Shown one piece after another: positions 3,121 to 64,000 of a stretch of DNA of 64,000 nucleotides (position 1 is its first letter; each line of letters opens with the position of its first letter). Below the pieces are notes generated by a model. It worked only from the letters and a program-made list of their open reading frames with translations, ran no database searches and was not told the origin of the DNA. A program made the position numbers and the translations under genes. Where the stretch lies: the NCBI RefSeq assembly GCF_031755915.1, contig NC_083386.1, positions 11,966,001-12,030,000 on the forward strand, read 5' to 3'. Source of the DNA: Ziziphus jujuba. Taxonomy: Eukaryota > Streptophyta > Magnoliopsida > Rosales > Rhamnaceae.

Positions 3121-5607
3121 CTATAGGAATGGCGGTAAAATCACCCATCGGCGTGGATACTTGGGTCTTCCTTCCTTTCCATCAAATAGCTGCAGACAAC
3201 AAGGTGTCACAACATTAGTTTTAATGGGGGCTAATCTCCATAGAATAAACGACACATGAGTAACTAAACATCTGGAAAAGTTTCTACCCTTGTAAAAGAG
3301 ATCAAATTTCACTTTATTTAGCTTTGGGGGAGTTAGGGGATGGGAGAGGGCTGGCTTTCATTGTTTATAGCACATAGGCCTAATGGACTCCAAAACAGAC
3401 CAAATATAAGACATGCAAAACCTAAGAACAGCAACATAAACTCTTCTATCAAAATATAAAATTATTCACACATGAATATACATGTATATGTGCGAGAATA
3501 ATTTACTCCTAAAATGATAGCTCCATGCAATAAAGTCTAACCAAGGTTGATCTCAATGTAAAAAACATCTGAGCAGCAAAATGCAATCTTTTGTATACGG
3601 AATTAGTTCAGCAAGAAAGCAAAGGAAGTTACCTTTTTGAGTCGGCGGTGCTTTGCAAGGGCCCAGTTGGTCATGATAGAAGCAGCAACTATGGCAAAGA
3701 TATAACCTGCAACTGTTTGTGTTGCAATGTTGAAACCTACCCATTGATAGATCTCTGTTGTGTAATTTGCACATGTCACAATATTAAACAAAAATCCACG
3801 TGGAATTTGATACCCTCCACTCCCATTAGGGCTGCGCAGATTGCTTAGCAAGATATGGCAATAGAAGTTTGCTATTTGACAAAGTATCCCAAACCCAAAG
3901 CCAATCTTCATTTGCTGTTCACTAACAGGGGTGTAAAGTGGGTGATTCACATAGTAAGCTATATAACAGCCAAAGGTCCAATAGTATGCACAATTGCGGA
4001 ACACATTGGAGAGTGGTGAGGTTGCATGGCTAAATCGATGCACAAAAAATGTTTCCATAATACGTTTGAAGTAGTGGAAACACCAATAGAACAAAGCATA
4101 TGTCTGGACTGGGTGGATGATGCGCTCTCCTTTGTACCCAAAGTACTGGTACACGGGAAAGAAGTAAAAGACAGGGTAGAGGATCAAAGGACCCAAATAC
4201 TCAAAAAAGAAAAGTGTGCGATAGGAAACTTGTGGGCCGAGGTCCTTGAACACTACTGTTAAGTTGTCCGAGTTTCCACCAGAGTAATCTTTGAGACTTT
4301 TCTTGTACTGAAGGACGGTAGGCCTCTCCTTGGAACCCGGCTGGATGGGGAGGGTCAGTCGCTGTCTTGCAGGATAGAACTTTTTGGCTGTTGATGTTAA
4401 GGAATAGAATCAATGGTGCAATACAAACATAAAATCTTCTTTTTGTTAAGTATTTAATTATTCGTTTATACATTACAGGTAACGGTCAAATGAATGGCAT
4501 AATTATAAAGCATACAAATCGAACCAGCGATAAGCATTGACAACTTCAAATACATCGAAGCTAAAGGCTCTTAACCAACTAGCAACTTAAGTGTAAACTT
4601 AGTTACAAGACCAGAACATCGACTCTGTTTAAAAGCATACAAGAAGAATCAACAATCATCATTGGCAACTTCAAATCAATCGAAACTAGAGGTCCATATC
4701 CTATCCAAGCCTTGCTACAATACCAAGAACATGGACTCTGTGTAGAGTTCTGTTTCACCTTTGTTGCCTAGCACAGCAATAAGGGAAAATGTTGCACAGG
4801 GATGCCATTTACTAATAAGATACCTAGTTGTGACTCTAAACTATTGAATTCAGTACCACAATTTTCAACCAGGAATGATACTCCTATGAAACTTAGAGAA
4901 TTATTTAGCATATGAGCTCTAAAAGCAGAAATACGAATCTCACTAACTCAAACAAAAAACCCCAGCCACGTTCTACATATCCAAGACCCAGACACCCAGT
5001 AAGCAACCAACAACAGTGGTTACTTGTGAGTAATATGGCTACCACGATCAATTATATAAAGTTTACCAGAAGGAGTAAGTACGAGCAAAAGCAAAACAAA
5101 CATTCTAAGCCCATTCACTGATACAAGTTCCAAAAAAAGGAAGAACAAGAACTTACTTCTCCGATAGATAGCCTCCTGCAGATCAGCTACCGTGGCCTGC
5201 AAAACAACATAAAAGACTAACACAATCATAGGTGTACCCAGATGGGCTCCTATAAACTTCTGCTAAAATTTATATATGAGATTGTACTTTTCGGATTTTT
5301 AGTTTTTGATCAATTTTAGTTCAAAAAACAAATTCAAGCTTTTTAAACTCAAACGGAATCCAACCCAATTTCATCAGACATGCAACAGATTTTTCCCATT
5401 TTGCAAACCACCCAAAGAAAAAATAAAAATAAAAATAAAATAAAAATAGAGGTGGTATACCATTTCTCCATAGTAGGCGAAGATTCCCGCGAATCACCAC
5501 AAAATAAAAGAAAGAAAAATGGGAAAAAGAGAACATACGGAATCGTTGAGCTCAAGGCCACCCTTGATGACTTCTTTACCGCTACGAGAAACGACGGTCA
5601 CCTTCAT
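3121..5607 (-). CDS. CER10: Very-long-chain trans-2,3-enoyl-CoA reductase (ECR/CER10), four exons
   Basis: Catalyses the last, NADPH-dependent reduction in each cycle of very-long-chain fatty acid elongation in the ER, feeding wax, sphingolipid and seed-oil synthesis. I place exons at 5539-5607, 5157-5196, 3633-4387 and 3121-3189; all introns have GT..AG ends and the frame closes at exactly 310 residues, the usual plant length. The start is the ATG of [12 protein letters not shown]. The N-terminus (about residues 1-85) is the ubiquitin-like part; the rest is the multi-pass steroid 5-alpha-reductase-type domain, with the conserved words [36 protein letters not shown] and NYTTEIYQW. It ends in [12 protein letters not shown], the family's typical C-terminus. 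No damage is seen. GGCCCA-type motifs lie upstream at about 5915-5955. Confidence 0.96.
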
Positions 5608-10023: not shown

Positions 10024-11176
10024 TCACTTGATAATTTTACAGATATCCTCGTATTCAACGGCTTCAAGAACTCTACCATCATAGACACCCTTCTCTATCT
10101 GCACCTTTGCACAAAACTTATCAGTATCCACAGCTAATGACCTCGCATTCAATCCGCGATAGGCGCCATTCACAATCTTAACAAGGCCACAAATCTGCGG
10201 AATCACATTATCAAGCTCTTCTTGATCAACTCTCAAAACATGCTTGTTTTCAAGCATTTCAATCTCTCCAACATACTTGTCAATCACTTTTCTCACAACC
10301 CCTTTTTGCTTATAATAAACCTTTTCAGCCAAAGCCTTACTCATGACCTTAACAGTGATTCCCTCACATAGCCAATAATCCTTCCTATTAATCTTCTCTT
10401 TCTTCTTCCTCCAAAGCTGAACTACCACCACCACCACCACCACCTCCATTCCTTCCTGAACTCCCACCAGCTTTCCTTGTCTCATTCTTATCGCTCTCTG
10501 TCTCTTCAAACACCAACTTCGAACTCTCTCCTTTCTTCTTCAACGATAAAGATGATCCAAGTGCAAAACCAATCGTAACACCATTCTCCAATTTTAATTC
10601 CCTTTTTTATCTCAGCCTGTAGAGACTGATCAGAATCAGACCCATTTCCAATTGGCATCAACTGCTCAGCCCTCTCAATCTGTATCTTTAGTTCGCTCTC
10701 CTGTTTCTCTTCCTCTGCCATATCCGCTCTAATCCTCTTATTATTCAACTTTGCTTTGAAAAGGGTCTCCGAATCTCTATTTATATAAGTGATAAACCAA
10801 ACATTTGGGGTCTCCTCTCGACCTTACACTTGCCCGTACGACCCAAGTACTTGACGAAGTCTGTGAGCGTAGCCCAATTCATATGGACGTGGTGCCGATC
10901 GCTGATGTACTCGTTGTAGACGACGGTGGCTGCGCTTCATGTGTTCGAGGAAATTACTCTCAAACTCTTCGGAATAGCCGTCGATGATACGGTTGGGGTT
11001 TTGGCCGAAGACTTTCATCTGGCGCTGGTGGCTCTCGCTCATGCAGTGGCATTTGAATCCGTTCTCGTCACAACATTGTTTCTGGCACATCTGACAGTAC
11101 CAAGGAGCTTCTGGAGACCTTTGGTTTTGATGCGGTTCGTGATTGCTTTCGGTGTTAGAAAATCGTTCTTCCCCAT
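10024..11176 (-). pseudogene. KIN17: KIN17-like DNA/RNA-binding protein, decayed
   Basis: KIN17 is a nuclear zinc-finger and KOW-domain protein linked to DNA repair, replication and RNA processing. Read on the minus strand, all parts of it occur in order but in different frames. The N-terminus MGKNDFLTPKAI starts at 11176. The C2H2 zinc-finger region (MCQKQCCDENGFKCHCMSES) and the winged-helix segment (VVYNEYISDRHHVHMN) follow. Next come the coiled-coil NNKRIRADMAEEEKQE and the C-terminal KOW part (YYKQKGVVRKVIDKYVGEIE to EYEDICKIIK). I count at least five breaks: a lost base near 11121, a short deletion near 10930, an insertion near 10835, a shift near 10600 and another near 10400 beside a GGT-type microsatellite. 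No intron is visible. It cannot make a full protein unless read errors explain every shift. Confidence 0.85.
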
Positions 11177-11269
11177 TGAAATTTCAGAAACTTTTTTCAA
11201 ATCAAAATCTCAATCTAGGATTCTGGTTGTTTTCAATTGCGGAATTGAAATTAAAAAAAAAAAAAAAAA

Positions 11270-23445: not shown

Positions 23446-23849
23446 TAGGATGGACATGGTTAAATTCGATTGGCTTGTTGTAATTTTTTTACAAATTAAA
23501 CCAAAGTGAACCACTGAAGAAACCAAACTAAATCAGCCATTAATGTGATTTGATCCGTTTGGATTTTGATCTAATATTATATTATATTATTTTGTTAATA
23601 TTATTAATATTTTTTTAAAAAATATTAATTTTATTAATTTAAATTTACTATTATTAATATCTTAAATCAAATCATTTAAAGCATAAAAATATATTAAAAA
23701 TATAATTAATTATAATAAAAATACTAAAAGTTATGTATAAATATATTCCATTTAATCTGGTTTGGTTTGTATTAAAATTGTTGAAACTGAATTGGAGTAA
23801 CCATAAATCAAAAATCGAAGGTTAAGTCGGTCTAGATCGCCCACTCTTA
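23446..23849. mobile_element. Diverged relative of the 13.6-kb MULE-like element
   Basis: The ends read TAGGATGGACATGG and CGCCCACTCTTA, diverged forms of the TAGGGGTGGGCATGG / TGCCCACCCCT ends at 13591-14723. The subterminal sequence again has inverted 'ggtttggtttg' / 'aaaccaaa' words. The interior is AT-rich and non-coding. No target duplication could be fixed. It abuts the start of the duplicated segment below. Confidence 0.4.
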
Positions 23850-23923
23850 ACAGCTAGTCGTAGCACCAATGCCAGTGGATTTCTAATGGCTTTCTGCCAA
23901 CCAACTACTAGTTATGATAATAT

Positions 23924-23925
<2 letters not shown>

Positions 23926-23973
<48 letters not shown>
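23926..23973. repeat. (CA)n microsatellite
   Basis: About 24 uninterrupted CA units. The paralogous tract in copy B (about 56170-56201) is shorter. Confidence 0.95.
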
Positions 23974-23976
<3 letters not shown>

Positions 23977-24784
23977 GTATTTATTTATTTAAAGGAAACT
24001 ATATATTTTTCTCTATTTTTTAGGTTGGGGAAAAAAGAAACTGGCAGCCTTTCAGGGACAATCCAGTTTTTTCTTCTTCTTTGTTTTTTTTTTTTATAAC
24101 AATAATTATGAATTTAAATGGTCACAACTTCAATATATTAAAAAAGAACTAAACTGCATTGCAAATGACCCAAAAAAAATGAAAAATGAAACTGCTATTG
24201 GCAGACAATGAGGACCAAGGCTGCTAGGATTTCTTTACCACATTTATTATTTCTTTGGCTGGACAGCCCGTTCTAGATCTACCACATAATGTTCTTATAA
24301 TTTCTTATTTTCTTATTGTTAAAAATGAATTATATATTCTTAAGACATTAAACTTCCATATCAATTTTATTATAATTTTTTGTGTTCTTACTTGTTGTTT
24401 TATTATATTACGTATCATGGTAATATCACTTCAATGGAAAAAAGGTGCCTTTTTTTTTATTTTTTTATGTTGAGACTTCAACTAAAACAAGTTTACTATA
24501 TTAAAAAATACAACAAAAAAAAATGATTATAGTCATGCAATCGTCCAGATTTCATTCTCCCTAGTTTTTTTTTTTTTTTTTTGGGTCCTTTTTGGTAATG
24601 ATCTCCATACTTTCAATACATAAAAACATAAATAAATAAATAAAATAAAACATTTGACACTATCTAATATTGTTTGATAAAATAAAAAATTCAAAGACTA
24701 TATAAAAAGGAAAGGTTTTTTTTTGTTTTTTTTTTTTTTGTGAATATAAAAAAGATAATAATTGTAAGCTTCGATTTATGTGTG

Positions 24785-24785
<1 letters not shown>

Positions 24786-24856
<71 letters not shown>
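24786..24856. repeat. (TA)n microsatellite
   Basis: About 70 bp of nearly pure TA. The equivalent point in copy B (about 57310-57322) has only a short TA run, so this expanded, or contracted there, after the duplication. Confidence 0.95.
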
Positions 24857-24858
<2 letters not shown>

Positions 24859-25485
24859 CCTGATTACATCAAGGCATTTTGACATTATAAAGTATATATG
24901 CACTTTACATAATTATTCGTACAATTATAAGCATATTAAGATGTTTAAATGTGTTCTCCCAACTGCCACTTTTTTTTTTTTTGGGGGGTGAAATTGCAAG
25001 TGCCTATTACTTGATTGTTATTTTTTTTATACGAATAAAAAAAAGTTTTTATTTTTTATTTTTTATTTTTTTTTATCATTATATGAATAAGAAAAGTTCA
25101 ACGGGTAGAGGATAACATGCCTCTGAAAACCAAAATGTTAGACTAATATGCCTATCATATGCATACGTCTACACTTATAGTCTCAAAAATATGACCGAGC
25201 GTCTCCTTAGGCTGCTGATTCTTGTTCTCTTCTTCTAAAGTGATTAAACTGGTGGACTTGGGCCTTATCCCACATGACTTTAGGTTGTCCATATGGTCAA
25301 CGCTCTCTTTTTGGTGGGTCTTATTGGGCTTCTCCATGCGCCGTTTTGTTTCACAGTTAGCAGCATTGTGAAATCCCAAAAAATAATAATAATAATAAAA
25401 TCAAACTAATTTCGAGATAATAAATTTAATTGTTCTCAACAAATTTTTGTAAGATATATGATTTTCAGAGAGAGAAAAAAAAAAC

Positions 25486-25517
<32 letters not shown>

Positions 25518-25769
25518 ATGAAAAAGATGGATTGTTACATATTATATGAAGGCTTTTATTTGACGTTATTTGTTTATATATTTTATTATTGTTTTTTAAA
25601 GTTTTGCTGGTTAGGCAAGAATTACGACAGCTTTAGAAATCAATTTCCACATAATTTCTTCCCTATTTCCTGTCTCTTTGGTACGTGCAATCACTTGCAT
25701 GCAAATATCAAATCCTTGATGCGTAAATTACAAGCTATAGTTTGTTGAAATTTCCACCGTTTTTATATC

Positions 25770-26237
25770 AGCGTGTGAGCCCTACGTGTCCAACACCCAT
25801 GTCTATTTGGCTACCGACATTTCAATATCACAAAGCATTTCACATCATTAAAAATAGTTAATATTTGGCTTAAAATATGCAGAAAAAGAAAAAGCAGTAA
25901 ACATTTCCACAACAAAAATCTTTTTTTTAAAAAAAAAAAAAGGGGAAAAGGAGTCTTACTCTAATTTGCTACTGGTTTCTTTTATATATATCATTAAATT
26001 CCTTGCAGTTTACGTGTTCGGGCCGACCCAAACCATGACTATGCAAAGATATGAAAGTTATGGGGAAACACCCCCATGGCTTCCACGTTAATAACACGAA
26101 AATTGGACGGTTTTATTACGTGGAGTTCACGGTCTCTTTCTTAATCTGCAAGGAGAACTTTAGGAACTCATTTTCAGTTAATTAAATTTCAACCCATTAA
26201 ATATTGTTTTGGGGGCAAGACCAGAAAAAGAAAAAAA

Positions 26238-26270
<33 letters not shown>

Positions 26271-26985
26271 ATATTTTCACAGAAACCATAAAATAATTAA
26301 GTAATGTTTTCAGCCTAGTAATTAATCAATTTGCTTGACATATTATATATATATATATATGTTTGCATATGTATACTTTATATATATATATATATATACA
26401 CAAAAATGCTACGATAAGAGAAGTTATTTGCTACATTAATGAAAATAATCATCCACAACTGTTAGGTTACATAAATCATATAGAATTTATGACTATGATT
26501 TATCTACAATATACACTTGTATATATATCGATCCATTTCATTGAGCTAATTAAAATAATGAAAATTAATTATATAAGTTAATATAAGGTGCAAATATATG
26601 ATCTTTAAAGGATCTACATGCATGGCCTTGTCATATGTGCTGCATGAGTTTAGAAAATAAAATAAATCACTATATATTTTTTTCGATAAAATAAAAATCA
26701 TAAAATGAAGATTATGTGAACCCAAGAGGTGTAATATTTCGGACAGCGCGTTAAATTAATCAAAACAAGGCATCAAAACCGACCACATAAAATAAGTTGT
26801 ATACTTTTCTATGATATTTTTTCATGTAATATATGGTGACGGAGCGTTGAGACTGTTAGGTTAATAATATATTATATAGTAAGAATTTTTTTTTTCTTTT
26901 ATTTAAAATTTCTGGGAACCTTTGTTTAACGCGATTTCCATCATGAAGCTTCTTTCAGGTCATTGTAACTTTACGAGGAAGCCAG
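25770..26985. other. Upstream region of the second DC1 gene, no gene recognised
   Basis: AT-rich with (TA)n tracts at about 26240-26262, 26345-26361 and 26378-26398. There is no counterpart in front of the HSP70-DC1 fusion; similarity between the two loci stops at about 25758 / 59788. Confidence 0.55.
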
Positions 26986-26991
26986 TGCTCT

Positions 26992-27161
26992 CTCTCTATA
27001 TATAGAGGATATTTTATGCTCGAAAAAATGCACGTCCAAATTAATTATTGCTATTTATATTGCTTTCTGTATTCTCTCAAATACCTATAAAGATTTCTTG
27101 CATTTTTTATTCCCACCGCAGCAACAGATATCTGATACGCTTCGAAAGCCCAAAAAAAGAG
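26992..27161 (+). promoter_or_regulatory. Promoter and leader exon of the second DC1 gene
   Basis: A TATA motif (ctatatatagag) lies at about 26997-27007. A leader of about 130 nt ends at the donor AAGAG|GTAATTTC (27161/27162). The intron runs to an acceptor just before the ATG: either TTTTCCAG ending 27748 or ACTCAG ending 27760. Confidence 0.5.
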
Positions 27162-27762
27162 GTAATTTCTTCTTTATGCTTGCTAGTTTAAATTTCTCAT
27201 TTTCTTCCTCCTTTTAGGAAAAACTCTTGAATTGATTGACATTTTTTTTAAAAAAAAAATACCTTTAAAGAGCCTCTAAATGCTAGCCAGACGCATAGCA
27301 AGTTCTGTTTATTAATTTACATAATATATATATAAATGCAGTAATGATTTAGTAGGTTATCCAAAATAAAATTGATAAATCATATACAGCTTTAATAATT
27401 TAAAGCGTTTTTTATTTTTATCTTTTAATACTAAAATTGTAATAATAAAATGTAAACTTTTTAATGAAAATCAATCTAATTTTTATATAGTATATAAATA
27501 ATATTGGATTTTTTTACCCCTATTTAGTTTTGTGCCACGTGAATATCATATATTTAAAAACAAATAGATAATTCATTAAATCAACAAACTGTACGTATAT
27601 TTTGCTCTTTATAAGAAACACTCTTTAACTTTTTTATCCTAAACAAAAATTTCTTTAATAAGAGACTAACTATATATATATATATATATAGATATGATTT
27701 GTTTTCTTCCCTTTTTCTAATAATTGAGAGGTGCTCATCATTTTCCAGGTTGCAACTCAGAT

Positions 27763-28530
27763 ATGGGAAAAACTGGTAATTACCATCCTAGCCACCAAGA
27801 GCACCCACTGGAGCTCAAGTCATTTCACAAACCCTACAAATGCGACGGCTGCAAAGAGACAGGCTTCGGAAAGAGATACAGATGCGACCGATGCGACTTC
27901 GATCTCCACGAAGATTGCATGTTTCTCGCCGACCAAAAATCCCACGCTTCCTTCAGAGGTTCGACATTCGAGTTCTTGGAACATCCTCCGCGAAAATGCG
28001 AACGAGACAAGTACTGCAAAGACTGCGAAAGATATTGCGACGCTTGTGGAAAACCCGTCAAGGGTTTCGTTTACCATTGCGCAAAAAATGGTCTAGATTT
28101 GCACCCTTGTTGCAGTAATCTCAAGCAAGTGCTTAAAATCGATGGCAAAGAGTTTCGGCTCGGCAAAGGCGTGAAGTCGAAATGTTTTTGGTGCGAAAAA
28201 GTGAAAGTTAAAGGCAGTGTTTCTGGTATAAGAGGCTGGTCTTATGTTTCATTGTGCAATGAGTACCGTCTTCATGTTTATTGTGCTACTGAAATGGTTT
28301 CCGAGGTTTGGAAAAGTAGAGACAAGATTGGTAGCGGTAATAATAATAAAAATGACTGTTTGGATTTGGAGAACTTGAAGCTTCCAAAGAGTTTGGCAAA
28401 GTTGAGAAAAAATGGTGCAAGGGGGAATAAGTATTGGAGGATTATAAAAGCAGTTCTCAGGACAATTGCTTGTATCCTTATGGGTGAACCAACCATTACC
28501 ATGACTTGCCTTGTTGAATTGCTCAAGTAA
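27763..28530 (+). CDS. DC1 zinc-finger protein, close parent of the fusion's C-terminal half
   Basis: 255 residues from ATG 27763 (MGKTGNYHPSHQEHPLELK). The frame is open a little further upstream but only through a TTG and across the splice acceptor. Fingers: about residues 14-52 ([25 protein letters not shown]), 61-117 ([32 protein letters not shown]) and 131-174 (CFWCEKVK..GWSYVSLCNEYRLHVYC). A hydrophobic segment near the C-terminus ([15 protein letters not shown]) is followed by LVELLK. Base for base it is nearly identical, over about 740 bp, to 62241-62979 in the HSP70-DC1 gene, including about 40 bp after the stop. Three intact fingers suggest a working gene; the role is unknown. Confidence 0.9.
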   Translation: MGKTGNYHPSHQEHPLELKSFHKPYKCDGCKETGFGKRYRCDRCDFDLHEDCMFLADQKSHASFRGSTFEFLEHPPRKCERDKYCKDCERYCDACGKPVKGFVYHCAKNGLDLHPCCSNLKQVLKIDGKEFRLGKGVKSKCFWCEKVKVKGSVSGIRGWSYVSLCNEYRLHVYCATEMVSEVWKSRDKIGSGNNNKNDCLDLENLKLPKSLAKLRKNGARGNKYWRIIKAVLRTIACILMGEPTITMTCLVELLK

Positions 28531-28619
28531 AAAGTGTTTAGTAGTTAATTATGGATTTTCCAATAAGTTTCTCTGTTTTATTATGACAGAATCATTGTAA
28601 ATAGGTGTGAGAGTTGTAA

Positions 28620-44064: not shown

Positions 44065-44790
44065 CTGAACATTAAAGATAAGACAAAATATAAGTACATA
44101 TTTCCACCTCAATAATAGCAGAATCATATTAACAAGACTGAACAAAAAGCTTCTTAATCCCATCAACAATAAATTCAAACCTTTTTAACCAAAAATTAAA
44201 ATAAAAATAAAAATACTTACATCATTTTGCTAAAATGATTGCAATCCAATTGTTTATATAAAGTTATTTTTAAGCATATTTATTAATTAAATCTATTTCA
44301 AATAACTTCTTTATATAATTCATTTTTTGTCTTTAATTATATACAACATATATTTTTCTCCATCTAACTCATACTTCACCATAAGTTTGGGTTGCAACAC
44401 AATGATTATCCAAATTATAAAAGCTCAAAAAGTTGTATTTAGTTTTTGCAATAATTATAATTTTTATTTATTTTTTATTTTTTATTTTTGTAATTTACCA
44501 ATGTTGTTTGAAAACTATTTCATTGGCTCTATCATTAATAATAATAAAAAAAATTTGATATATATATATATATATTGAGTTTGAAGAGTTTAAAAATACT
44601 TAAATCCACCTTTTATTTTGACCTTCCAAATATATATAATGTTTATTGTGAATGCTAATATATAAATATATTATTTATGGAAAATTTTTGTTTTCTGTAT
44701 TTATTCAATTGTATTGGCAATAGCAGCTCAATTTATTGTATTTCTTATAATTTTGTTTTTATTTGTTGTTTTTTTTTCTTTTTTGTAGAG

Positions 44791-46100
44791 ATGGATGGAA
44801 GAAAATTAGTTGTGATTCAATCTTTTTGTTGGGGCTTTATGTTTATCTTTTTTACGTACATGTATGTAGCGTGGCAAAGGAGAAATGAAAGACGTGTTAG
44901 GAATAGAATAACTAGGAATACCGAATTGCGTACATCTTTTATAGATAGTTTGTTGGACAATGATGTCACTTGTATTAGTCAATTGAGGATGGATAGGAGA
45001 ACATTTGTTATTTTATGTCGGTTATTACGCCAGGATGGATATGTGAAAAGAGATGGTACTGTTACATTGGAAGAGCAAGTGTGCATATTTTTGCACATAA
45101 TTGCTCATCATACAAAAAACCGTACAATTATCAGTCGATTCTATAGATCAGGGGAGACAATTAGTAGATATTTCAATTCAGTATTGAATGGGGTGTTGCG
45201 CTTACATTCCATTTTGTTGAGGCATCCTGAACCTGTGTCGGATAATTGCTCGGATGATAGATGGAAAATGTTTAAGGTACGTATGTGGACTAGTTTGGTT
45301 ATTAATTTTATAGTTAGATGACTTGTAGCATTATCTGACGTTAGTAAAATTGTTTGTGTCGTAGAATTGTTTGGGAGCATTAGATGGAACTTATATTAAG
45401 GTGAAAGTACCTGAAATCGATAAGCCAAGATATCGAACAAGAAAGGGTGAGATCGCAACAAATGTCTTAGGTGTATGTAACCCGAATATGGAATTTATAT
45501 TTGTATTACCGGGTTGGGAAGGCTCCGCTTCAGATTCCAGAGTACTTAGAGATGCAATAAGTAGGCCAAATGGACTAAAAGTACCAACCGGTAAGACCAA
45601 TCCTTAAATATTTCATCGAGTGGATTAACATTGCATAAACTAATAGGAGAAATTTTTCTGTGTTAGGTTGTTATTACTTAGTGGATGCTGGTTACACAAA
45701 TGGTGAAGGATTTCTTGCACCATATAGGAGAACAAGATATCACCTTTCCGAATGGAGAGATGGTTGTGCACCCATAAATCATCAAGAGTATTTCAACATG
45801 AAGCATGCATCAGCTAGGAATATCATAGAAAGATGCTTTGGGGTTCTTAAAATGCGATGGGCAATTTTAAGAAGTCCATCTTTCTACCCAATTGCAACAC
45901 AAATCAAAACCATTACTGCATATTGTCTGATACATAATCTGATTAGAAGAGAAATGACACTCGATCCTGGAGAAGTCGAATATGATAGGATGGAAAATGT
46001 GGACATTAATGAAGAGGAGGACATTATAGGATCAATTGCTTCCTCAGATCAATGGATGAATTGGAGAGATGAGTTAGCTAAGCAAATGTTTGGTGAGTAG
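44791..46100 (+). CDS. PIF/Harbinger DDE transposase, three exons
   Basis: Exons 44791-45276, 45365-45590 and 45667-46100 join in frame to 381 residues. The protein cuts and rejoins the element's ends. The N-terminal helical part has [20 protein letters not shown] and [20 protein letters not shown]. The nuclease motifs are the Asp of [13 protein letters not shown], the Asp of [20 protein letters not shown] and the Glu of [16 protein letters not shown]. The second Asp and the Glu are 47 residues apart, the DD47E spacing of this superfamily. A conserved [14 protein letters not shown] segment lies between the first two motifs. No stop or frameshift is seen, so this ORF looks functional. The start follows an acceptor TTTTGTAG, so a leader exon may exist. 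Confidence 0.93.
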
Positions 46101-46303
46101 AGAGGTCATCATGATTACTAGTTGATGGTTATGTAAAAAATTATGTTCTCACTGCTTATTTAATATTGTTTGTTAAATCTTTTGGATAATATGTATGAAG
46201 GCAAACTTATATTATATTAAGTGCAACATTTGAGATTTATTGTTATTTTGTTTGCATCTTGTTTTGATAATGTTGGAATCATGAAATGTTTACTTGAATA
46301 GCA

Positions 46304-47269
46304 ATGAAAGCTGGAGGTAGCAGTAACAATAATAGGTGGGGTGAATCTAGGCGTACATGGAGTAGAGGTGAGGAAGAAGCTTTGCTGGTTCTTTTAGATG
46401 AAGTAGTAGCTAGTGGGCAACGTTGTGACATGGGAGCATTTAAACCTGGTACACTTAATATGATTGAGCGGCAACTGGCTGAAATGTGTCCTAACTCGGG
46501 ATTGCGAGCAACTCCACATATTGAATCGAAGCTAAAAAAGTGGAAGAAGCAATATGGCATCATATACGACATGCTGAACAAAAGTGGATTTGGATGGAAT
46601 GACACTCTTAAATGTGTGGAGATTGACAGTGACGATGCTTGGAAAGCATATGTGCAGGTTTTGACTTTGTTAGGAAAAATACCTTTATTAAATTTTGTGT
46701 TTCTTATCTTAAATATATAATGTTTTTACTAAATGATGGTTTTTTTTTATTTTAGAGTAATCCAAGTGCAAAAAGTTGGAGAGATAAACCTTTTTCCGAT
46801 ATATGAGAGGCTTGCTAATATTTTTGGGAAGGATCGGGCAACAGGACATGGAGCACAAACTCCAATTGATTTAGTTAATGATATAAATATGGAGCCTGAC
46901 AATGACCAATTTGATGATGTGGGTTCTCCAATGTCTATGAATCAAACACATTGTCAACTGCCTACACAATCCCAATTAAGAGCTAAGAGGAAAGCTCAAT
47001 CGAAGGATGTTGACGTCGTTAGCGGGTTAAACAATGTAGCAGATAAGTTTATTGATAAATTGGCTACACAGTTAGACAAGTTGGAGAAGTCTGATATCAA
47101 CTATCCACAATACTTAGCTATGAAGCTTGACAGGTTAGGATTCCCTATTACTGACAATCTCAAAATCTCTAAGGCAATAAGATCGGATCCATTGAACGTT
47201 GAGGTTTTCAAGATTATTAAAACCGATGTGCAGAAGATTGAATTTGCTCGTGGATTTTTGGATAACTAA
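46304..47269 (+). pseudogene. Harbinger Myb/SANT-like DNA-binding protein, one frameshift
   Basis: Exon 1 (46304-46657) encodes RTWSRGEEEALLVLLDEVVA, PHIESKLKKWKKQYGIIYDM and GWNDTLKCVEIDSDDAWKAY, the Myb/SANT-like domain of the second Harbinger protein that partners the transposase and binds the element's ends. Exon 2 (from 46756) should continue SNPSAKSWRDKPFPIYERLA, but an extra T in the run at about 46792-46796 shifts the frame before FPIYERLANIFGKDRATG. From there the frame is open to the stop at 47267-47269, including a C-terminal helical part. No alternative acceptor restores phase. The element therefore lacks an intact partner protein unless this is a read error. Confidence 0.8.
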
Positions 47270-47527
47270 ATTAGTATTGTTGTGGATTATATATTTATGG
47301 ATATGTATGAGAGGATGACAACTATAAACATTTGGAATTGAAACTTATGGACATATATTGTAACGTATTGAATGTTGGTTTCTAATTATGCATGCACGGA
47401 TAATTTTATTATTATGTGTTATGTTTTAGAATATTAACATGTACTTTATTGATTTGGTTAGTTGTTATTTTGTTTAATAATATTACTATATTATATTGTC
47501 ATTTATTATTATATGCAGGAATATTGA

Positions 47528-47848
47528 ATGGCAAAGAGAAGGGTTTATGTTGTGTTTAAAGGTCGACAACCAGGGATATATAATTCTTGGTCTGAATGTC
47601 ATCAACAAGTGCACGGATTTACAAATAATTTATATCAAGCCTATAATACAATTGAAGAAACTGAAATTGCATATGTTGAGTTTGTAGAACAAACAATGAG
47701 GAATCGTAATGAAGCAAATCCAATACAAAATACCACCACCGTACATACACGTGCTCAATTTCACAATGAGTGGGGTAATGATTTTGTATTAGGTTGCTTA
47801 GTTGGCTTACTATCAATAGGTTTATTTACTTATTTCTTATATAATTAG
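47528..47848 (+). CDS. Third Harbinger ORF: viroplasmin / RNase H1 N-terminal-type domain with C-terminal membrane segment
   Basis: 106 residues. The first 50 (KRRVYVVFKGRQPGIYNSWS..CHQQVHGFTNNLYQAY) have the pattern Y-x-V-x-x-G-x-x-x-G-I-Y-x-x-W-x-x-C-x-x-Q-V-x-G-F. That is the small RNA-DNA hybrid-binding fold shared by eukaryotic RNase H1 N-termini and caulimovirus inclusion-body protein. No RNase H catalytic domain follows. The C-terminus is a single hydrophobic segment (FVLGCLVGLLSIGLFTYFLY). The ATG follows an acceptor-like TATGCAG. It lies inside the element, 260 bp after the Myb-like ORF and on the same strand. A role in transposition is unproven. Confidence 0.7.
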   Translation: MAKRRVYVVFKGRQPGIYNSWSECHQQVHGFTNNLYQAYNTIEETEIAYVEFVEQTMRNRNEANPIQNTTTVHTRAQFHNEWGNDFVLGCLVGLLSIGLFTYFLYN

Positions 47849-55689: not shown

Positions 55690-56085
55690 TAAATGTCTAA
55701 AAAGTAATTAAATGATAAAAAAAATTACCAATGAAGTTAATTTGATAATTTTTTTATTAAATATAAATAATATTTATGAATTTTTTAAAAAAAATTTAAA
55801 AATTCTATTAATATTTTTGAAATTTCAATAAAAATTTTAAAAATTTTTCATGGAAATTATAGATTTTTTTAACCAAATCATTAAGCATTTGATGGATATT
55901 ATGAAAAATTGATTTTTCCATGGAAATTCGATGGAAATTATAAATTTTTTTATGGAAATTCAATGGATATTATAGAAGTTTTATCCACTTCCACTTCGAA
56001 CGTATATTTTATTTCGACCCTTCCAAAAATGAAAATATCAAAAAAATTTCAAATAAATATTGAATATTTTAAACCTTGCTTTTAA
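55690..56085. repeat. AT-rich repeat, inverted relative of 38.9 kb
   Basis: Ends, on the minus strand, with AAGGTTTAAAATATTCAATATTT, similar to the start of the 38877-40010 repeat, and has the same 'ggaaattcgatggaaatta' style. It abuts the duplicated segment. Confidence 0.4.
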
Positions 56086-56155
56086 CAACTAGCCGTAGCA
56101 CCAATGCCAATGGATTTCTAATGGTTTTCTACCAACCAACTACCTAGTTATGATA

Positions 56156-56203
<48 letters not shown>

Positions 56204-56981
56204 TATTTATTTATTTATTTAATGGAAACTATAGATTTTTCTCTATTTTTTAGGTTGGGGAAAAAAGAAAGTGGCAGCATACAGGGACAATCCATTTTTT
56301 TTTTATTAACAATAATTATGAATTTAAATTGTTACAACTTGAATATATTAAAGAAATAACTAAACTGCTTTGCAAAAGACCCAAAAAAACAAAAAAACAA
56401 AAAAACAAAAAAAAAAAAAGAAAAGAAAAGAAAAATGAAACTGCAATTGGCAGACAATGCGGACCAGGGTTGCTAGGATTTCTTTAGCACATTTATTATT
56501 TGTTTGGCTTGAAAGCCCGTTCTACATCTACCAAATAATGTTCTTAAAATTTCTTATTTTCTTATGTCAAAAACGAATTATATATTCTAAAGACATTAAA
56601 CTTCCATATCAATTTTATTATAATTTTTTGTTTTCTTACTTCTTGTTTAATGTTTACCTATCATGGTAATATTACCTCAATGAAACAAGGTACGTAATTT
56701 TTTATATTTTTTACTTTTTTATGTTGAGACTTCAACTAAATAAGAATACAAAAAAAATGATTATAGTAATGCAAACGTCCAGGTTTCATTCTCCCTATTT
56801 TTTTTTTCTTTTTGGTAATGATCTCCGTACTTTCAATACATAAAAAGAATATAAAAATAAAACATTTGACACTATCTAATATTATTTGAAAAAATAAAAA
56901 ATTCAAAGGCTCTATGAAAAGGAAAGGGTTTTTTTTTTTTTTCTTTTTTCCTTTTTGAATATAAAAATAGAAAGATAATAG

Positions 56982-57276
56982 CTTCTTTTTTTTTTTTGGG
57001 TGAATAATTAATAAACCTTTTGATGAGTATTTTTAGCCCAGAAAATTGAGAACTATGGAATATTAATGGTCATGGCTTAAACAACTCTCATCGGAGTCCA
57101 TTGACTACCTAGCCCGCCATCATACGGCTACCCCAATCCCCTTCCCCTATAGTGTATAAAGGTTCTACACCAAAACGATAAATGGGGCTGTTGGAACTCG
57201 AATCCACAACTTTTACAAGCATATATGATAGGAAGCCAATGATGATGACCATTTGCTCCACCCCTTGGTGTCTAAA
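56982..57276 (-). mobile_element. tRNA-derived-type SINE, 295 bp, with target duplication
   Basis: Flanked by AAAGATAATAG on both sides (56971-56981 and 57277-57287). Copy A has this word once with nothing between (about 24755). On the minus strand it starts near 57276 and has a box A-like GGAGCAAATGG (about 57249-57260). A box B-like GTGGATTCGAGTTCC follows about 40 bp later (57190-57208). It ends in a poly(A) tail (poly(T) on the plus strand at about 56985-56997). These are the features of a RNA polymerase III-driven SINE. Confidence 0.82.
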
Positions 57277-57601
57277 AAAGATAATAGTTCTAAGCTTAGA
57301 TTTGCGGGTATACATATATATAATCCTGATTACACCAGGATATTTTGACTTTACAAAATATATATACACTTTACATAATTATTCGTACAATTATAAGCAT
57401 ATTAGAGTGTTTAAAAACGTTCTCCCAAGTGCCACTTTTTGTTTTTTTATTATTATTTTTTTGGTGAAATTGCAAGTGCCAATTATTTTATTGTTATATT
57501 TTATATGAATAATTTTATTTTATTTATTCATTATATGAATAAGAAAAGTTCAACGCTTAGAGGATAACATGCCTCTGAAATCCAAAATGTGAGGCTAATA
57601 T

Positions 57602-59179
57602 GGGCAGTTTGTTTCACCGGGTTGGACAGGATTGTATCCCAAGTGTTTGGTAGCATCAAATAGAGAACCAGATAACTTACCACTACAGTAAAATAATTCC
57701 CCTCAAGGAGGATTAAACTGACCCGTCTCTCCTCCTGGGTCAGCTTTTTATCCGAAGCTCATCGAATGTTGTGGTCTCTCTCGCTAGTGTCTCCTGCTGG
57801 TATCTCTGGCCAGATCAAGCTCGCCGGACCATTCGTGGCTCTCGGAGTTGAAACCCCCCCGGTGAGTAGTGTTCTTCTTGAATCCGTGAGTTTTTCTTCT
57901 ATATTTCTCTCCGATAATAACGAAGGAATCTTCTCTCTCTCTCTCTACCCTCCTGCTTCCTGCTTCCTTCTTCTTAAAGTGAGCCTCTTCAATATAGCAA
58001 TGGTGGAATCACGACTAGCAGTATTTCTTTTGGTCATGGGATTTCTATCATTTACATCTGAGTCCCTTCGGTTCGACCTGAAATCTGGCCACACCAAATG
58101 CGTTTTAGAAGATATAAATAGCAATTCAATGACGATGGGCAAGTACAGCGTCGTCAAGCCCAACGAGGGTCATCCTCTTCCCGCTTCCCACAAGCTTTCG
58201 TCAACTGGGTGTTGGATAATTTGTTTGGTTGATTGAAATTTATAGGTAACTTCGCAATATGGGAATACCCTTCACCCTGCGGACCACCAGGATTCAGGGC
58301 ACCGGAAGTTACATGACTTGCTTCTTTGCCCCTGATCACAAGCCCGAGACCACGTTGACTGTTGAATTTGATTGGAGGACTGGGTTTTCTGCTGAAGATT
58401 GGTCCAATGTTGCTAAGAAAGGCTCTGTTGAGGTAAAGTTTTTCTTTTCTGATTTCTCTTTTCCGCAATTGGGATTGGTTTATTGATAGAATTTGAGTTT
58501 GCCAAAAGGTAAATGCTTTTTATATGTGGGAGCATGAGTTCAAGGCAAAAGAACGGGTTTCCTTAGACATTTTATATTTCCTAAATTTATTGGTTTTGTT
58601 GTGGGGTTATTTAATTTATTCATGGTTAACTGAGGTTTTTGACAAACCCATTTTGTGGTATTCATGAGAATTCATTTGAAACTGTTCTTGATGCTCAACG
58701 TCCCTTTTCAGAGAGGAAGAAGTGCAGGGGCTTAACAAATCAACTAGCACCAAGATGATCGTGTTTACTCTTCTCTCAATTGTTATTTGCTTGTCGGTGG
58801 CAAGAATGCAGTTATGACACTAGAAGACCTTTTTTGAGAAAAAGAAGCTCATTTAAATTTGAGTGGGTTTCAAGTTTCATGTCATTTATCTGTGCTTTTG
58901 TAAATTATTTTGCATGTATATATAAATATATAAATTTACAACTTTAATTAGATGTAATAATTTTTTTTATAAATATATAAATTTATAATTTTAATTAGAT
59001 GTAATAGTTGTTTTAATATAAATATAGCACTTAAATTTATAAATATATTTATAAAATAGTCTAATTCAGTCCAATTCTATATCAAATATAAGACAATTAA
59101 TTCATTATTCAGTTCGAAACTATAACAAATATAATTTATTCTATTTAATCGGCCCTATTCGGCGTACCAAACCCTCCTC
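57602..59179 (+). mobile_element. Non-autonomous Harbinger (Pack-type) carrying gene fragments
   Basis: The left end GGGCAGTTTGTTTCACC and right end GGCGTACCAAACCCTCC match the ends of the 40.3-48.5 kb Harbinger. So do the subterminal blocks 'aaactgaccc..cctgggtca' on the left and 'cagtccaattct..ttcagttcgaaactata' on the right. It is flanked by TAT (57599-57601 and 59180-59182), and copy A has a single TAT at the same point (25147-25149), an empty site. It has no transposase; the interior holds p24 gene sequence and a possible second exon near 57770-57870. It could have been mobilised by the element at 40 kb. Confidence 0.82.
58000..58434 (+). pseudogene. Captured p24 (emp24/gp25L) cargo-receptor fragment
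   Basis: From ATG 58000 the frame reads a signal peptide (RLAVFLLVMGFLSFTSES) and then LRFDLKSGHTKCVLEDINSN and MGKYSVVKPNEGHPLPASHK, the start of the GOLD domain of plant p24-delta proteins, which carry cargo in COPI/COPII vesicles. A second block (from about 58243) has VTSQYGNTLH, then a deletion and frame change, then TCFFAPDHKPETTLTVEFDW and NVAKKGSVE up to a donor-like GTAAAG at 58435. The cargo-binding coil, membrane segment and tail are absent. Because of the deletion and missing 3' end it cannot make p24. Confidence 0.8.
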
Positions 59180-59799
59180 TATGTCTATCATATGCATACA
59201 CATCTATATATAATAGTTTCAAAATATGACCGAGCGTCTCTTTAGGCTATGTGCGGATTCTTGTCCCGCATGACTTTAGGTTGTCCCTATGGTCAACACT
59301 CACTTTTCCGTGGGTCTTATTGGGCTTCTCCATATGCCGCTTTATTTCATAATGAGCAGCATTGCGAAATCCCCCCAAAAAAAAAAAATAATAATAATAA
59401 TACTATAAAATCAAACTAATTTCAAGATAAATAAATTTATTTGTTTTCAACAAAATTTTGTAAGATATATGTGATTTTCAGAGAAAAAAAACTACATATA
59501 TATGTATATATATGTGACGAAAAAGATGGATTGTTACATATTATATGACGGCTTTTATTTACGTTGTTTGTTTGTATATTTTATTATTGTTTTTTAAAGT
59601 TTTGCTGGTTGGGCAAGAATTACGACAGCTTTAGAAATCAATTTTTTTTCCACATAATTTCTTCCCTATTTCCTGTCTCTTCGGCACGCGCAATCATTTT
59701 TTTATTATTTTGATAGGTCGGCACTGGCATGCAAATATTAAATCCGTGATGCGTCAATTACAAGCTATAGTTTGTTGAATTTTCCACATTGAATATTAT

Positions 59800-60252
59800 T
59801 CTTTAGGAAGATCTTTTATCCCTACAGACTTCAAAAGTTGATTCCGAATCCAATCAAACATTCCTTTAAATTAATTAATCTGGTGCGACAACATCACTGC
59901 TACTACGCTCTAAATCCTGTTTTCGGCTCGCACCAAATAGGAACTATCTAGAACAACCTGCGTTCTGTTTTGCTTTTTTTTTGGCTTGGAATCTAGAACG
60001 ACCTACGCGCACTATTACTTACACATGTAGGCAACTTCCAGGAAGCTACCTTAGAATCCATCGGTGGCATTTAAATATCTATCATCTTAGAGGGATGAAC
60101 ATGCAAAGATTCATTGTGGTGTCTTTTGTTTATTTTCAAACTTTTAAAATCCTTGGCCTTTCTATTTTGCTTGTTTTTCATTTTTTGTTGCTAATATTTA
60201 TCTCTGATTCTTTTCTTCTCGGAAGCTCTTTCGATCTAAGATCACGACGATA
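59800..60252 (+). promoter_or_regulatory. Promoter and leader of the HSP70-DC1 fusion
   Basis: Sequence in front of the fusion's ATG that has no counterpart in front of the 27.8-kb DC1 gene, so it probably came with the Hsp70 part. Two copies of 'tctagaac' (about 59947-59954 and 59991-59998) resemble half of a heat-shock element, with one mismatch to TTCnnGAA. A TTTAAATA word at about 60071-60078 could serve as a TATA box. The leader ends in a CT-rich stretch and gataATGGC. Heat regulation is only suggested. Confidence 0.4.
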
Positions 60253-62979
60253 ATGGCTGGAAAAGGAGAAGGTCCAGCAATCGGTATCGATCTCGGCACG
60301 ACATACTCTTGTGTAGGAGTATGGCAACACGACAGGGTCGAGATCATCGTCAACGATCAGGGTAACCGAACGACGCCGTCTTATGTCGCTTTCACTGATT
60401 CTGAGCGTTTGATCGGCGATGCAGCCAAGAACCAGGTCGCCAGGAACCCCATCAACACCGTGTTTGGTAAGTCCTCCAATTTTTTCATTTTTTTTTTTTA
60501 AATTTAATAATGCATCTAATTTTTTCGTTCGCAATTTTTATATATACACGTTAGTTAAATCTGAAGAATGCATGTACTATGAGATTTGGTTTTGTTTTCA
60601 TAATAAAACGTTATGTACTGTATAGAGATAGATCTGTGTGTTTGTGTTTCTTGAATCAATTGTTTTTCGATATTTAAAAAAAAAAAAAAAATTTTTTTAA
60701 TTGTAGGTGCAAAGAGATTGATCGGTAGGAGATACAGTGATGCATCGGTTCAGAGCGATATCAAGCTCTGGCCATTCAAGGTTTTTGCAGGAGCTGGAGA
60801 CAAGCCCATGATTGTGGTTAAGTACAAGGGCGAAGAGAAGCAGTTCGCTGCTGAAGAGATCTCCTCTATGGTTCTCATCAAGATGCGTGAGATCGCAGAG
60901 GCTTACCTTGGTTCCACAGTCAAGAACGCCGTCGTTACAGTCCCTGCTTACTTCAATGACTCCCAGCGTCAGGCTACCAAGGATGCCGGTGTTATTGCTG
61001 GCCTTAATGTGATGCGTATCATCAATGAGCCAACTGCCGCTGCCATTGCCTACAGGCTTGACAAGAAGGCCACTAGCGTGGGTGAGAAGAACGTGTTGAT
61101 CTTCGATTTGGGTGGTGGTACTTTCGATGTGTCATTGCTCACCATTGGAGAGGGTATTTTCGAGGTGAAAGCCACCGCTGGTGATACTCACCTTGGAGGA
61201 GAGGATTTCGATAACAGAATGGTGAACCACTTTGCTCAAGAGTTCAAGAGGAAGCACAAGAAGGACATTAGTGGCAGCCCAAGAGCCCTTAGGAGGTTGA
61301 GGACTGCCTGTGAGAGAGCAAAGAGGACTCTCTCATCCACTGCCCAAACTACCATTGAAATCGATTCCCTCTATGAGGGTGTTGATTTTTACTCCACGAT
61401 CACCCGTGCTAGATTTGAGGAGCTCAACATGGATCTGTTCCGGAAGTGTATGGAGCCCGTTGAGAAGTGTTTGAGAGATGCTAAGATGGATAAGGGCTCT
61501 GTCCATGATGTTGTTCTTGTGGGAGGTTCTACCAGAATTCCCAAGGTACAGCAGCTGTTGCAAGATTTCTTCAATGGAAAGGGGCTCTGCAAGAGCATCA
61601 ATCCAGACGAGGCTGTTGCATACGGTGCAGCTGTTCAGGCTGCAGTCTTGAGTGGTGAAGGGAATGAGAAGGTCCAGGATCTATCGCTTGTGGATGTCAC
61701 GCCTCTGTCTCTTGGTTTGGAGACTGCTGGAGGTGTTATGACAGTATTGATTCCCAGGAACACAACAATTCCCACCAAGAAGGAGCAGGTTTTCTCTACC
61801 TCCTCGGACAACCAACCTGGTGTGTTGATCCAGGTGTACGAGGGTGAGAGAGCTAGAACCAGGGATAACAACTTGTTGGGCAAATTCGAGCTGTCTGGCA
61901 TTCCTCCAGCACCCAGGCGAGTTCCTCGGATCACTGTTTGCTTTGACATTGACGCAAACGGTATTCTCAATGTTTCTGCCGAGGACAAGACCACCGGCCA
62001 AAAGAATAAGATCACGATTACCAATGACAAGGGAAGATTGTCCAAGGAAGAAATTGAGAAGATGGTTCAGGAAGCAGAGAAATACAAGTCTGAAGATGAG
62101 GAGCACAAGAAGAAGGTTGACGCCAAGAATGCTTTGGAGAACTATGCCTATAACATGAGGAACACTGTTAAGGATGACAAGATTGCTTCCAAGCATGCAG
62201 CAGCAGACAAGATGAAGATCCAAACAGTCATTCGTTCAGCTAGCCACCCAAAGCACCCACTGGAGCTCAAGCAATTTGACAAACCCTACAAATGCGACGG
62301 CTGCAAAGAGACAGGCTTCGGAAAGAGATACAGATGCGACCGATGCGACTTCGATCTCCACGAAGATTGCATGTTTCTCGCCGACCAAAAATCCCACGCT
62401 TCCTTCAGAGGTTCGACATTCGAGTTCTTGGAACATCCTCCGCGAAAATGCAAACAAGACAAGTACTGCAAAGACTGCGAAAGATTTTGCGACGCATGTG
62501 GAAAACCCGTCAAGGGTTTTGTTTACCATTGCAAAAAAAATGGTCTAGATTTGCACCCTTGTTGCAGTAATCTCAAGCAAGAGTTTAAAATCGATGGTAA
62601 AAAGTTTTCGCTCAGCAGAGGCGTGCATTCGACATGTTGTTTTTGGTGCGGAAAAGAGAAAGTTAAAGACGGTATAAGAGGCTTGTCTTATGTTTCATCG
62701 CGCAATGAGTACCGTCTTCATGTTCATTGTGTTACTAAAATGGTTTCCGAGGTTTGGAAAAGTAGAGACAAGGTCGGTAGCGGTAATAATAATAAAAATG
62801 ACTCTTTGGATTTGGAGAACTTGAAGCTTCCAGAGAGTTTGGCAAAGTTGAGAAAACATGATGCAAGTCGTAAGAAGATGTATTGGAAGATTATAAAAAC
62901 AGTTCTCAGGACAATTGCTTGTATCCTAGGTGAACCAACCACTCTCGTGACTTCCCTTTTTATTGAACTGCTTAAGTAA
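60253..62979 (+). CDS. HSP70-DC1 fusion protein: Hsp70 truncated in its lid, joined to three DC1 fingers
   Basis: Exons 60253-60466 and 60707-62979 join to 828 residues with no stop. The intron interrupts the GAKRLIGRR region. Residues 1-576 are a cytosolic Hsp70: IDLGTTYS (12-19), the [14 protein letters not shown]ase motif, [15 protein letters not shown], the SBD start [20 protein letters not shown] and the lid start [18 protein letters not shown]. Normal Hsp70 (about 650 residues) would go on to the rest of the lid and the EEVD end; both are missing. From residue 583 ([10 protein letters not shown]) the protein is a DC1 protein like the gene at 27.8 kb, with [23 protein letters not shown] and CFWCGKEK fingers and the hydrophobic tail ending IELLK. 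Unusual changes: AYRLDKK for AYGLDKK (R188), STSSDNQPG for [18 protein letters not shown] for PRGVPQITV, and R737 for a finger-3 cysteine. The product could be an ATPase tethered by zinc fingers; function is inference. Confidence 0.9.
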
Positions 62980-63019
62980 AAAGTGGATAGTAGTTAATTA
63001 TGGGTTTTCCAATAAGTTT

Positions 63020-64000
63020 CTGATGCAGCTGAGAAAACCAGACATACAATGCTGCATAACTCTTTCTTTTTCTGTCTATATCTTATATCTAAATAAGAAA
63101 AAACGCTGCGTTTTGTATTCTTTTTATTTTCTTGCTGATGTGGTTTTATTTCTTTTATTTTACTCGCCCTGCATGGTGGAAAAACGAATATAAGGAATAG
63201 CCCAGTGAATGTAAGGGTAGAGACCTTTAGGGTATATTTGTATGATGTATTAGGATGTATTGGAATGGATTGCATTAACTATGACATATAAAAATACGAA
63301 AAAGGTTCCGTATTTTTGAATCTCTTCCCTTTTCCTTTGAATCTCTTGAAGCTCGTAAGACAGAGAGGGTGTGAATTTCGAATTGATTTTTTTGTTTCCT
63401 TTTTTCTGTTTTTTTTCCCCATTTCTGGAGATTTCTCTGCAAGCATACACGGTTGTGGAAAATTTTGCCCCGTTTCTGGAGATTTTTCTGCAAGCAAATA
63501 CGGTTGTGGAAAATTTTGTAATATCAGTTGATTGTACTTGAGTAGTTTGATTCGAATCTGCTGTTGAAATAATTGGATTGGATATTGCTTTTTTAACCTT
63601 TACAGTAATTTTGTTTAATTATTTTATTTATGATAAGATGACTTTGTTGTGTTGTGAGTTAGATCTTTGTTGTGCTGTGAATTGGCTGTTGGTGAGTTTT
63701 GGAGGACTTGGTCAAATTCGGTGGTTCATTTATGAGAATAAAGTTGCTTGTTAATTGAGTATAATAAATTGTTAGAAACAAAAAAGTGTTTGGACTTGGA
63801 AAAGTGTTAGAAAAAACAAAAAAGTGTTAATTGCGTGTTAATTGAGTGTAATATGTTTTTAGCAAAAAAACAAAAAAGTTTTAGAAACCCGATAATGGGG
63901 CCTAGTATCACTTATTTTTTGGACTTGTAAAAGGCCTAGTATCACTTGGAAAATGCCTGGAAACAAAAAAGTGTTTGGATTTGGAATGATGTGCTAGTAT
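63020..64000. other. Downstream of the fusion gene, no gene recognised
   Basis: About 40 bp after the fusion's stop still match the DC1 3' flank; the rest does not. A 51-bp unit is tandemly repeated at 63418-63468 and 63469-63519 ('tttctggagattt', 'ctgcaagca', 'cggttgtggaaaattttg'). Near the end, 'aaaagtgtttgga.ttgga' and 'cctagtatcactt' words recur. No exon was recognised. Confidence 0.6.

Follow-up and report, generated by a model that had tools for sequence, protein, structure and literature searches.

An in-frame Hsp70–DC1 gene in Ziziphus jujuba, probably formed within a DC1 gene cluster

Hsp70 is among the most conserved of proteins, and its C-terminal EEVD docks partner proteins. In the available portion of PMC8982422, this EEVD is described both as the class mark of cytosolic Hsp70s and as the dock for TPR partners. 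No paper on an Hsp70–DC1 fusion was found in the literature searched: the jujube papers PMC11094900, PMC11209981 and PMC8660251 name HSP70 or HSC genes, and 'DC1' is absent from the available portions of their main text; likewise, 'HSP70' does not occur in the available portions of the DC1 family papers PMC13033517 and PMC10707348. A preliminary description of the locus reported here had stated that no protein with this architecture was known to have been described, which stands for the literature searched, but predicted proteins with the same pair of families exist in four other species, with differing break points.

The window analysed here is a 64-kb stretch of the Ziziphus jujuba genome, and the chimeric gene spans 60253–62979 of its forward strand. 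Its first part resembles a cytosolic plant Hsp70 (Hsc70; Arabidopsis HSP70-1/-2 type, PF00012) in the ATPase domain, the signatures and the peptide-binding domain, with 92–93% identity to the nearest listed Hsp70s, and differs from it in the loss of the later lid helices and the EEVD tail, in an altered linker, in the attached DC1 protein and in more change at conserved columns. Its second part resembles the plant DC1 proteins (divergent C1, Cys/His-rich, PF03107) in the first finger and in a predicted C-terminal helix, whereas it has neither a start codon nor a promoter of its own and carries the substitutions W731L and C737R in the third finger; most of its later Cys and His residues are common to the other predicted Hsp70–DC1 fusions.

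Structure of the gene and its product

Exon 2 of the gene is a single uninterrupted frame from 60707 to the stop codon at 62979, which crosses the join, and the whole frame of 828 codons contains no stop and no frameshift (Table 1). The product consists of Hsc70 residues 1 to ∼582 (ATPase domain, peptide-binding domain and first lid helices) followed by a complete DC1 protein. In Pfam, PF00012 covers residues 9–582 (827 bits) and PF03107 (C1_2, DC1) covers residues 584–627, where the first finger scores 47.9 bits against a cut-off of 26 bits. The in-frame chimera of the preliminary description is thus real in the sequence, as one open exon-2 frame with both domains in one 828-residue protein, and the three Hsp70 signatures that it claimed are all present, at residues 12, 203 and 340, by what we take to be the PROSITE patterns. 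Because Hsp70 homology (tblastn) runs to 62241 and DC1 homology starts at 62240, the two parts abut and the junction is fixed at 62239/62240, so that the Hsp70 share is ∼582 residues rather than the ∼576 first estimated. Both halves are full homologues of known families, with up to 93% identity to the listed Hsp70s and 90.5% DNA identity to the DC1 gene at 27763–28530, hence chance is excluded as the source of the join.

The spliced frame equals the 828-residue database protein P0001 of Ziziphus jujuba, which is named 'heat shock cognate 70 kDa protein 2' and is the representative of a three-sequence cluster; identity is 100% over 269 scored residues, and the printed sequences are also equal over their whole length. 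Since P0001 may derive from the same assembly as the window, this identity is not independent support. In the piece upstream of the start codon (59788–60252), a TATA-like TTTAAATA is present at 60070. A scan of 59700–60252 gave no perfect heat-shock element and two sites with eight of nine core letters, at 59940 in the Hsc70-derived piece and at 59771 in the DC1 flank; because no element is perfect and one of the two near sites is in the DC1 flank, we do not argue for heat induction of the chimera.

Table 1. Features of the chimeric gene, the duplicated block and the DC1 genes in the window
Feature	Position	Strand	Basis or remark
Another, more distant DC1 gene, 261 aa	20001..20786	+	PF03107; separate branch of tree
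Upstream flank of parental DC1 gene, counterpart of 56079..59787	23844..25757	+	Self-comparison
Presumed promoter, leader and start codon (27763) of parental DC1 gene	25758..27787	+	Other sequence in fused copy; no match there
Parental free-standing DC1 gene, 255 aa	27763..28530	+	PF03107; sister to fused DC1, support 100/99
Upstream flank of DC1 gene, duplicated copy	56079..59787	+	Aligned pieces 56079–56980, 57309–57602, 59180–59248, 59260–59787; matches 23844–25757, substitutions 7.7–11.3% of aligned sites
Probable Hsc70-derived promoter and leader of chimera	59788..60252	+	Without counterpart in parental block
Exon 1 of chimera	60253..60466	+	Hsp70 residues 1–71 and first base of codon 72; spliced frame equals P0001; GT at 60467
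Intron of chimera, GT..AG	60467..60706	+	Omission yields 828-aa frame and Hsp70 alignment
Exon 2, Hsp70 part (remaining ATPase domain, linker, peptide-binding domain, first lid helices)	60707..62239	+	PF00012 to residue 582; P0126 matches as far as 62241 (tblastn)
Exon 2, DC1 part with stop codon	62240..62979	+	90.5% DNA identity to DC1 gene (alignment from 27788); PF03107
3′ flank common to chimera and parental DC1 gene	62980..63021	+	Homology ends after this piece

The Hsp70 part covers the two-domain Hsc70 construct of 554 residues in the structures 1yuw and 3c7n (query 6–559 against chain 3–553) and extends ∼23 residues beyond it. What we take to be the active-site motifs of the ATPase are intact, and D72G adjoins one of them. 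The interdomain linker reads DLSLVDV in place of the conserved DLLLLDV, and both altered positions, L398 and L400, never vary among 75 reference Hsp70s, a set picked by similarity to the chimera. In total, seven private changes fall in columns invariant in this set (D72G, G188R, E219G, I385V, L398S, L400V and Q479R); the mean is 0.84, but the excess is modest because the ordinary Hsp70 P0185 also has seven and P0160 has six. Among columns where 95% of the other rows share a residue, the chimera deviates at 16, more than any other of the 76 rows; the next two have 12 each, and the median is 2.

An AlphaFold model, made from a 31-row mixed alignment and used for helix positions only, was poor for the Hsp70 part (mean pLDDT 59.6, residues 1–97 below 50) and better for DC1 residues 591–760 (ten-residue blocks at pLDDT 63–91). 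In this model, helices are predicted at 518–560 and 570–581, which presumably fit lid helices B and C, suggesting that lid helices A and B and part of C remain and that the later helices and the tail are lost. The earlier view that most of the lid is lost does not hold, since the structure-chain alignment and the predicted helices keep the first lid helices and only the later ones and the tail are gone; the loss of EEVD is borne out, as the chimera ends in ELLK. The gain of a zinc-finger module with a hydrophobic tail is likewise in line with the PF03107 match and the predicted C-terminal helix of the DC1 part. At the W731L and C737R columns of the third finger, 42 and 36 of 44 relatives agree, respectively; the latter column is Cys in those 36, and its spacing suggests a zinc ligand, such that C737R leaves the fused DC1 without its full set of putative zinc-ligand Cys and His residues.

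A duplicated block and the origin of the join

Self-comparison of the window showed that 23844–28572 and 56079–63021 are two copies of one block, in which 23844–25757 pairs with 56079–59787 and 27788–28572 pairs with 62240–63021. Between the matched pieces, the copy with the solo DC1 gene has 2030 bases, including the DC1 start at 27763, and the fused copy has 2452 bases, which comprise upstream DNA, exon 1, the intron and most of exon 2 from an Hsc70 gene. The parental solo gene stands 34 kb from the chimera. We consider it likely that the chimera is a young gene made locally within the DC1 gene cluster, by duplication of the block and replacement of part of one copy by Hsc70 DNA. In that copy, ∼2.03 kb with the DC1 promoter, leader and start codon would have been replaced by ∼2.45 kb of cytosolic Hsc70 DNA with its intron kept, the Hsc70 piece ending inside the lid and the two coding parts meeting in frame. 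Because the intron and upstream DNA came along, we infer that the replacement was copied during break repair from an Hsc70 gene elsewhere and not from an mRNA. An mRNA-derived retrogene was rejected on the retained intron 60467–60706. When the window was searched by tblastn with P0126 and with its lid, nothing beyond the chimera matched at an E value below 0.99; on this result we also rejected a DC1 insertion into an Hsp70 gene whose end would then have stayed downstream. The donor Hsc70 gene would thus be outside the window, and the Hsp70 source and copying direction given here are putative.

The window has other features of interest. In the fused copy only, ∼1.58 kb at 57603–59179 separates pieces of flank that adjoin each other in the parent (25147–25150); TATG is found at both of its edges and its ends appear weakly inverted by eye, so that it is perhaps a small DNA transposon. 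Pieces at 44659–47845 resemble a transposon that we take to be of the PIF/Harbinger type, with DDE_Tnp_4 at 45639–46097 and a Myb/SANT-like domain at 46298–46717; after these comes a Cauli_VI/RNase H1 N-terminal domain, at 47528–47845. On the reverse strand, a KIN17 homologue lies in pieces at 10027–11183 (SH3-like, C-terminal SH3 and C2H2 finger), and a frame of the 3-oxo-5-alpha-steroid 4-dehydrogenase family lies at 3603–4253, presumably of the enoyl-CoA reductase type.

Divergence between the fused and the parental DC1

The fused and parental DC1 proteins are 83% identical in amino acids. Over 243 codons, Ka and Ks were 0.089 and 0.065 by NG86, 0.098 and 0.047 by YN00, and 0.088 and 0.055 by LWL85, and substitutions in the non-coding flanks of the two blocks were at 7.7–11.3% of aligned sites. 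Ka is thus near the divergence of the flanks, which indicates that the amino acids of this pair change at about the neutral rate. The change is placed mostly on the fused branch by several comparisons of the sequences: at the 47 differing aligned residues the family majority favours the parent at 36 and the fusion at 9, with 2 ties; compared with the two nearest outgroups, 26 sites agree with the parent only, 6 with the fusion only (p 0.0005 for 26 against 6), 4 with both and 11 with neither; and the branch lengths in the DC1 tree are 0.20 for the fused copy and 0.03 for the parent.

The pattern of indels differs between coding DNA and flanks. All five indels in the DC1 coding DNA are multiples of three, compared with 7 of the 36 flank indels (Fisher p 0.001), although some of the five may be older than the join or have occurred in the parent, and indels are rarer in the coding DNA (5 in 738 bases against 36 in 1674 flank bases, p 0.009). 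A stop-free DC1 part has a chance probability of 0.10–0.27 and is weak evidence taken alone. The reading frame of the DC1 part looks to be under selection. In our reading, the DC1 copy would have been coding during much of the time since the duplication, and the fused protein would be weakly constrained or changing its role; with a frame that appears kept and an amino acid sequence that appears little constrained, the chimera would be either gaining a new role or drifting. Hence, because amino acid change is near-neutral, a settled function is less certain than the preliminary description implied. One stretch in the region of the first finger, 62340–62440, is identical in the fused and solo DC1 over 100 aligned bases, and other blocks differ by 4–12 per 100; gene conversion or strong constraint are possible reasons.

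Recurrence of the join and its possible meaning

The preliminary description had proposed that other plant proteomes be searched for PF00012 with PF03107, and the pair was found in Dipteronia, Quercus and Morella and, less cleanly, in Citrus. A search with residues 560–828 gave 21 proteins at E ≤ 0.001 among 677 candidates; four of them have Hsp70 and DC1, from jujube, Dipteronia dyeriana (P0002), Quercus suber (P0003) and Morella rubra (P0004), and two have a kinase and DC1 (P0005 and P0006). From the Hsp70 side, two of the best 120 of 7989 scored proteins have both domains, P0001 and Citrus unshiu P0122; the latter is of eligible length and was met in this search only, which shows that the DC1-side search was not exhaustive. 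P0122 has an Hsp70 piece, a DC1 piece and then a second Hsp70 with EEVD, and looks like neighbouring genes merged by annotation. The predicted proteins of these four species, known here as gene models only, share with jujube the order of Hsp70 followed by a DC1 protein. The last PF00012 profile position is 566 in jujube, 435 in Dipteronia, 491 in Quercus and 588 in Morella, and part of the ATPase domain is missing in three of the four (Quercus, Morella and Citrus, but not Dipteronia). DC1 is also joined to unrelated partners, again in gene models only: to kinases in Miscanthus and Sorghum (P0005, P0006), to HMA in Cornus (P0070) and to a Met/Leu-tRNA synthetase piece in Acer (P0071). DC1 thus seems prone to fusion, or DC1 genes are prone to annotation merging.

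In a DC1 tree of 26 rows, the fused DC1 of jujube is sister to the solo DC1 of the window (100/99), that of Dipteronia is sister to a solo DC1 of its own species (92/80), beside Acer, and those of Quercus and Morella group with Fagus and two further rows (97/92). The groupings tested on this tree were named before the topology test but after a first tree, and Citrus was left out of the test of a single clade. One clade of the four fused DC1s was rejected (p-AU 4e-32), as were the cross-order pairs jujube with Dipteronia (2e-4), jujube with Quercus (2e-6) and Dipteronia with Quercus (5e-76), whereas the pairing of Quercus with Morella was not (0.28). Because the DC1 parts reject a single origin, they point to at least three separate joins, if the gene models are real, and jujube would have an origin separate from those of Dipteronia and of Quercus/Morella, with another break point. 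The Hsp70-side tree is poorly resolved, with 20 of its 31 inner branches open, and is weakened by five long or partial fusion pieces and by several rows from multi-copy models cut at 650 residues; there, jujube and Dipteronia are weak sisters (34/87), and neither jujube with Quercus (p-AU 0.28) nor Quercus with Morella (0.227) is rejected.

These data bear on how the jujube gene arose. One ancient fusion inherited by all these species would explain the same two families in the same order, and is not rejected by the poorly resolved Hsp70 tree, nor is the Quercus–Morella pairing on the DC1 side; we hold it to be scarcely probable, as the DC1 parts group with solo DC1s of their own relatives and break points differ, and on the DC1 side it is rejected by the clade test, although solo DC1s might in principle have converted the fused ones and so mimicked separate origins on that side. 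The reverse order of events, in which the other block lost an Hsp70 and left the solo DC1, is opposed by the DC1-like N-terminus of the solo gene. We also judge an assembly artefact in jujube to be very unlikely. P0001 and the solo DC1 of the window (P0022) are both on a 30,413,063-base sequence, such that the model may stem from the same assembly, but the frame is open in the raw sequence, P0001 represents three sequences, the DC1 indels are all in frame, and a difference of 7% from the parent over the aligned sites means that the fused DC1 is not a misplaced parental read.

With local formation of the chimera as the preferred reading, its fate is to be considered. Transcribed from the Hsc70 promoter, the chimera would yield an Hsp70 core (ATPase, peptide-binding cleft and partial lid) with DC1 zinc fingers and a hydrophobic C-terminal helix. 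The intact motifs suggest that ATP cycling with J-proteins and peptide binding would be retained, HOP or similar TPR partners would not be docked through EEVD, and the binding partners of the DC1 part would be carried instead. The most likely action, if it is expressed, would be that of a low-fidelity Hsc70, with J-protein-driven peptide binding tethered to a DC1 partner, and the changes in the linker and the third finger would be the weak points of this action. The roles put forward in the preliminary description, as a relocated ATPase, as a stress sensor or in interference with normal Hsp70, would be further conceivable actions. That the chimera encodes a working protein is a tentative reading, which we would put at clearly short of even. 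A dying by-product of the same origin, with little or no transcription or an unstable protein and a frame that is open through youth only, comes close to an even prospect: Ka/Ks of ∼1 or above, the two third-finger substitutions and the seven changes at Hsp70-invariant columns, two of them in the linker, fit such decay, but the stop-free frame, the in-frame indels and the intact catalytic motifs speak against it. Repeated selected recruitment in rosids, by which linked DC1 and Hsc70 genes fuse repeatedly because the chimera serves the plant, for instance in signalling during immunity or stress, is unlikely; it is suggested by the predicted fusions of the other species, their differing joins, the rejected single origin and the linkage described below, but the other four are gene models, three of them lacking part of the ATPase domain and the Citrus one resembling an annotation merge, constraint in the jujube sequence is weak, and linkage alone could yield useless fusions.

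The linkage comes from gene numbers rather than from mapped synteny. In Dipteronia, Ddye_004580 is the fused gene and Ddye_004565 the solo DC1 closest to it, and each is on a sequence of 98,462,741 bases; in Arabidopsis, a Cys/His-rich C1 gene has the number AT5G02330 (available portion of PMC4354979), and AT5G02490 and AT5G02500 are HSP70-2 and HSP70-1 (available portion of PMC8982422). These numbers suggest that DC1 and Hsp70 genes are neighbours in both species. In the available portion of PMC10707348, half of the tomato DC1 genes are clustered on one chromosome and 15 of 21 are without introns. With an Hsc70 gene linked to a DC1 cluster that is poor in introns and copied in tandem, in-frame fusions would come at little cost. 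A bolder and still less probable proposal is that Hsp70–DC1 is a recurrent, convergent architecture of rosid trees, in which DC1 genes near Hsc70 capture its promoter and core to make EEVD-less, DC1-bearing chaperones, selected for client binding or for baiting Hsp70-targeting pathogen effectors at a DC1-defined site. If the Sapindales and Fagales proteins are real, the same two families have met at least three times, and linkage alone or usefulness may be the driver. In jujube, the chimera would be a young gene, perhaps for an EEVD-less chaperone, in which the EEVD end was swapped for a plant zinc-finger protein, and with the parent block and the join in one stretch it offers a clean natural case of the birth of a new protein.
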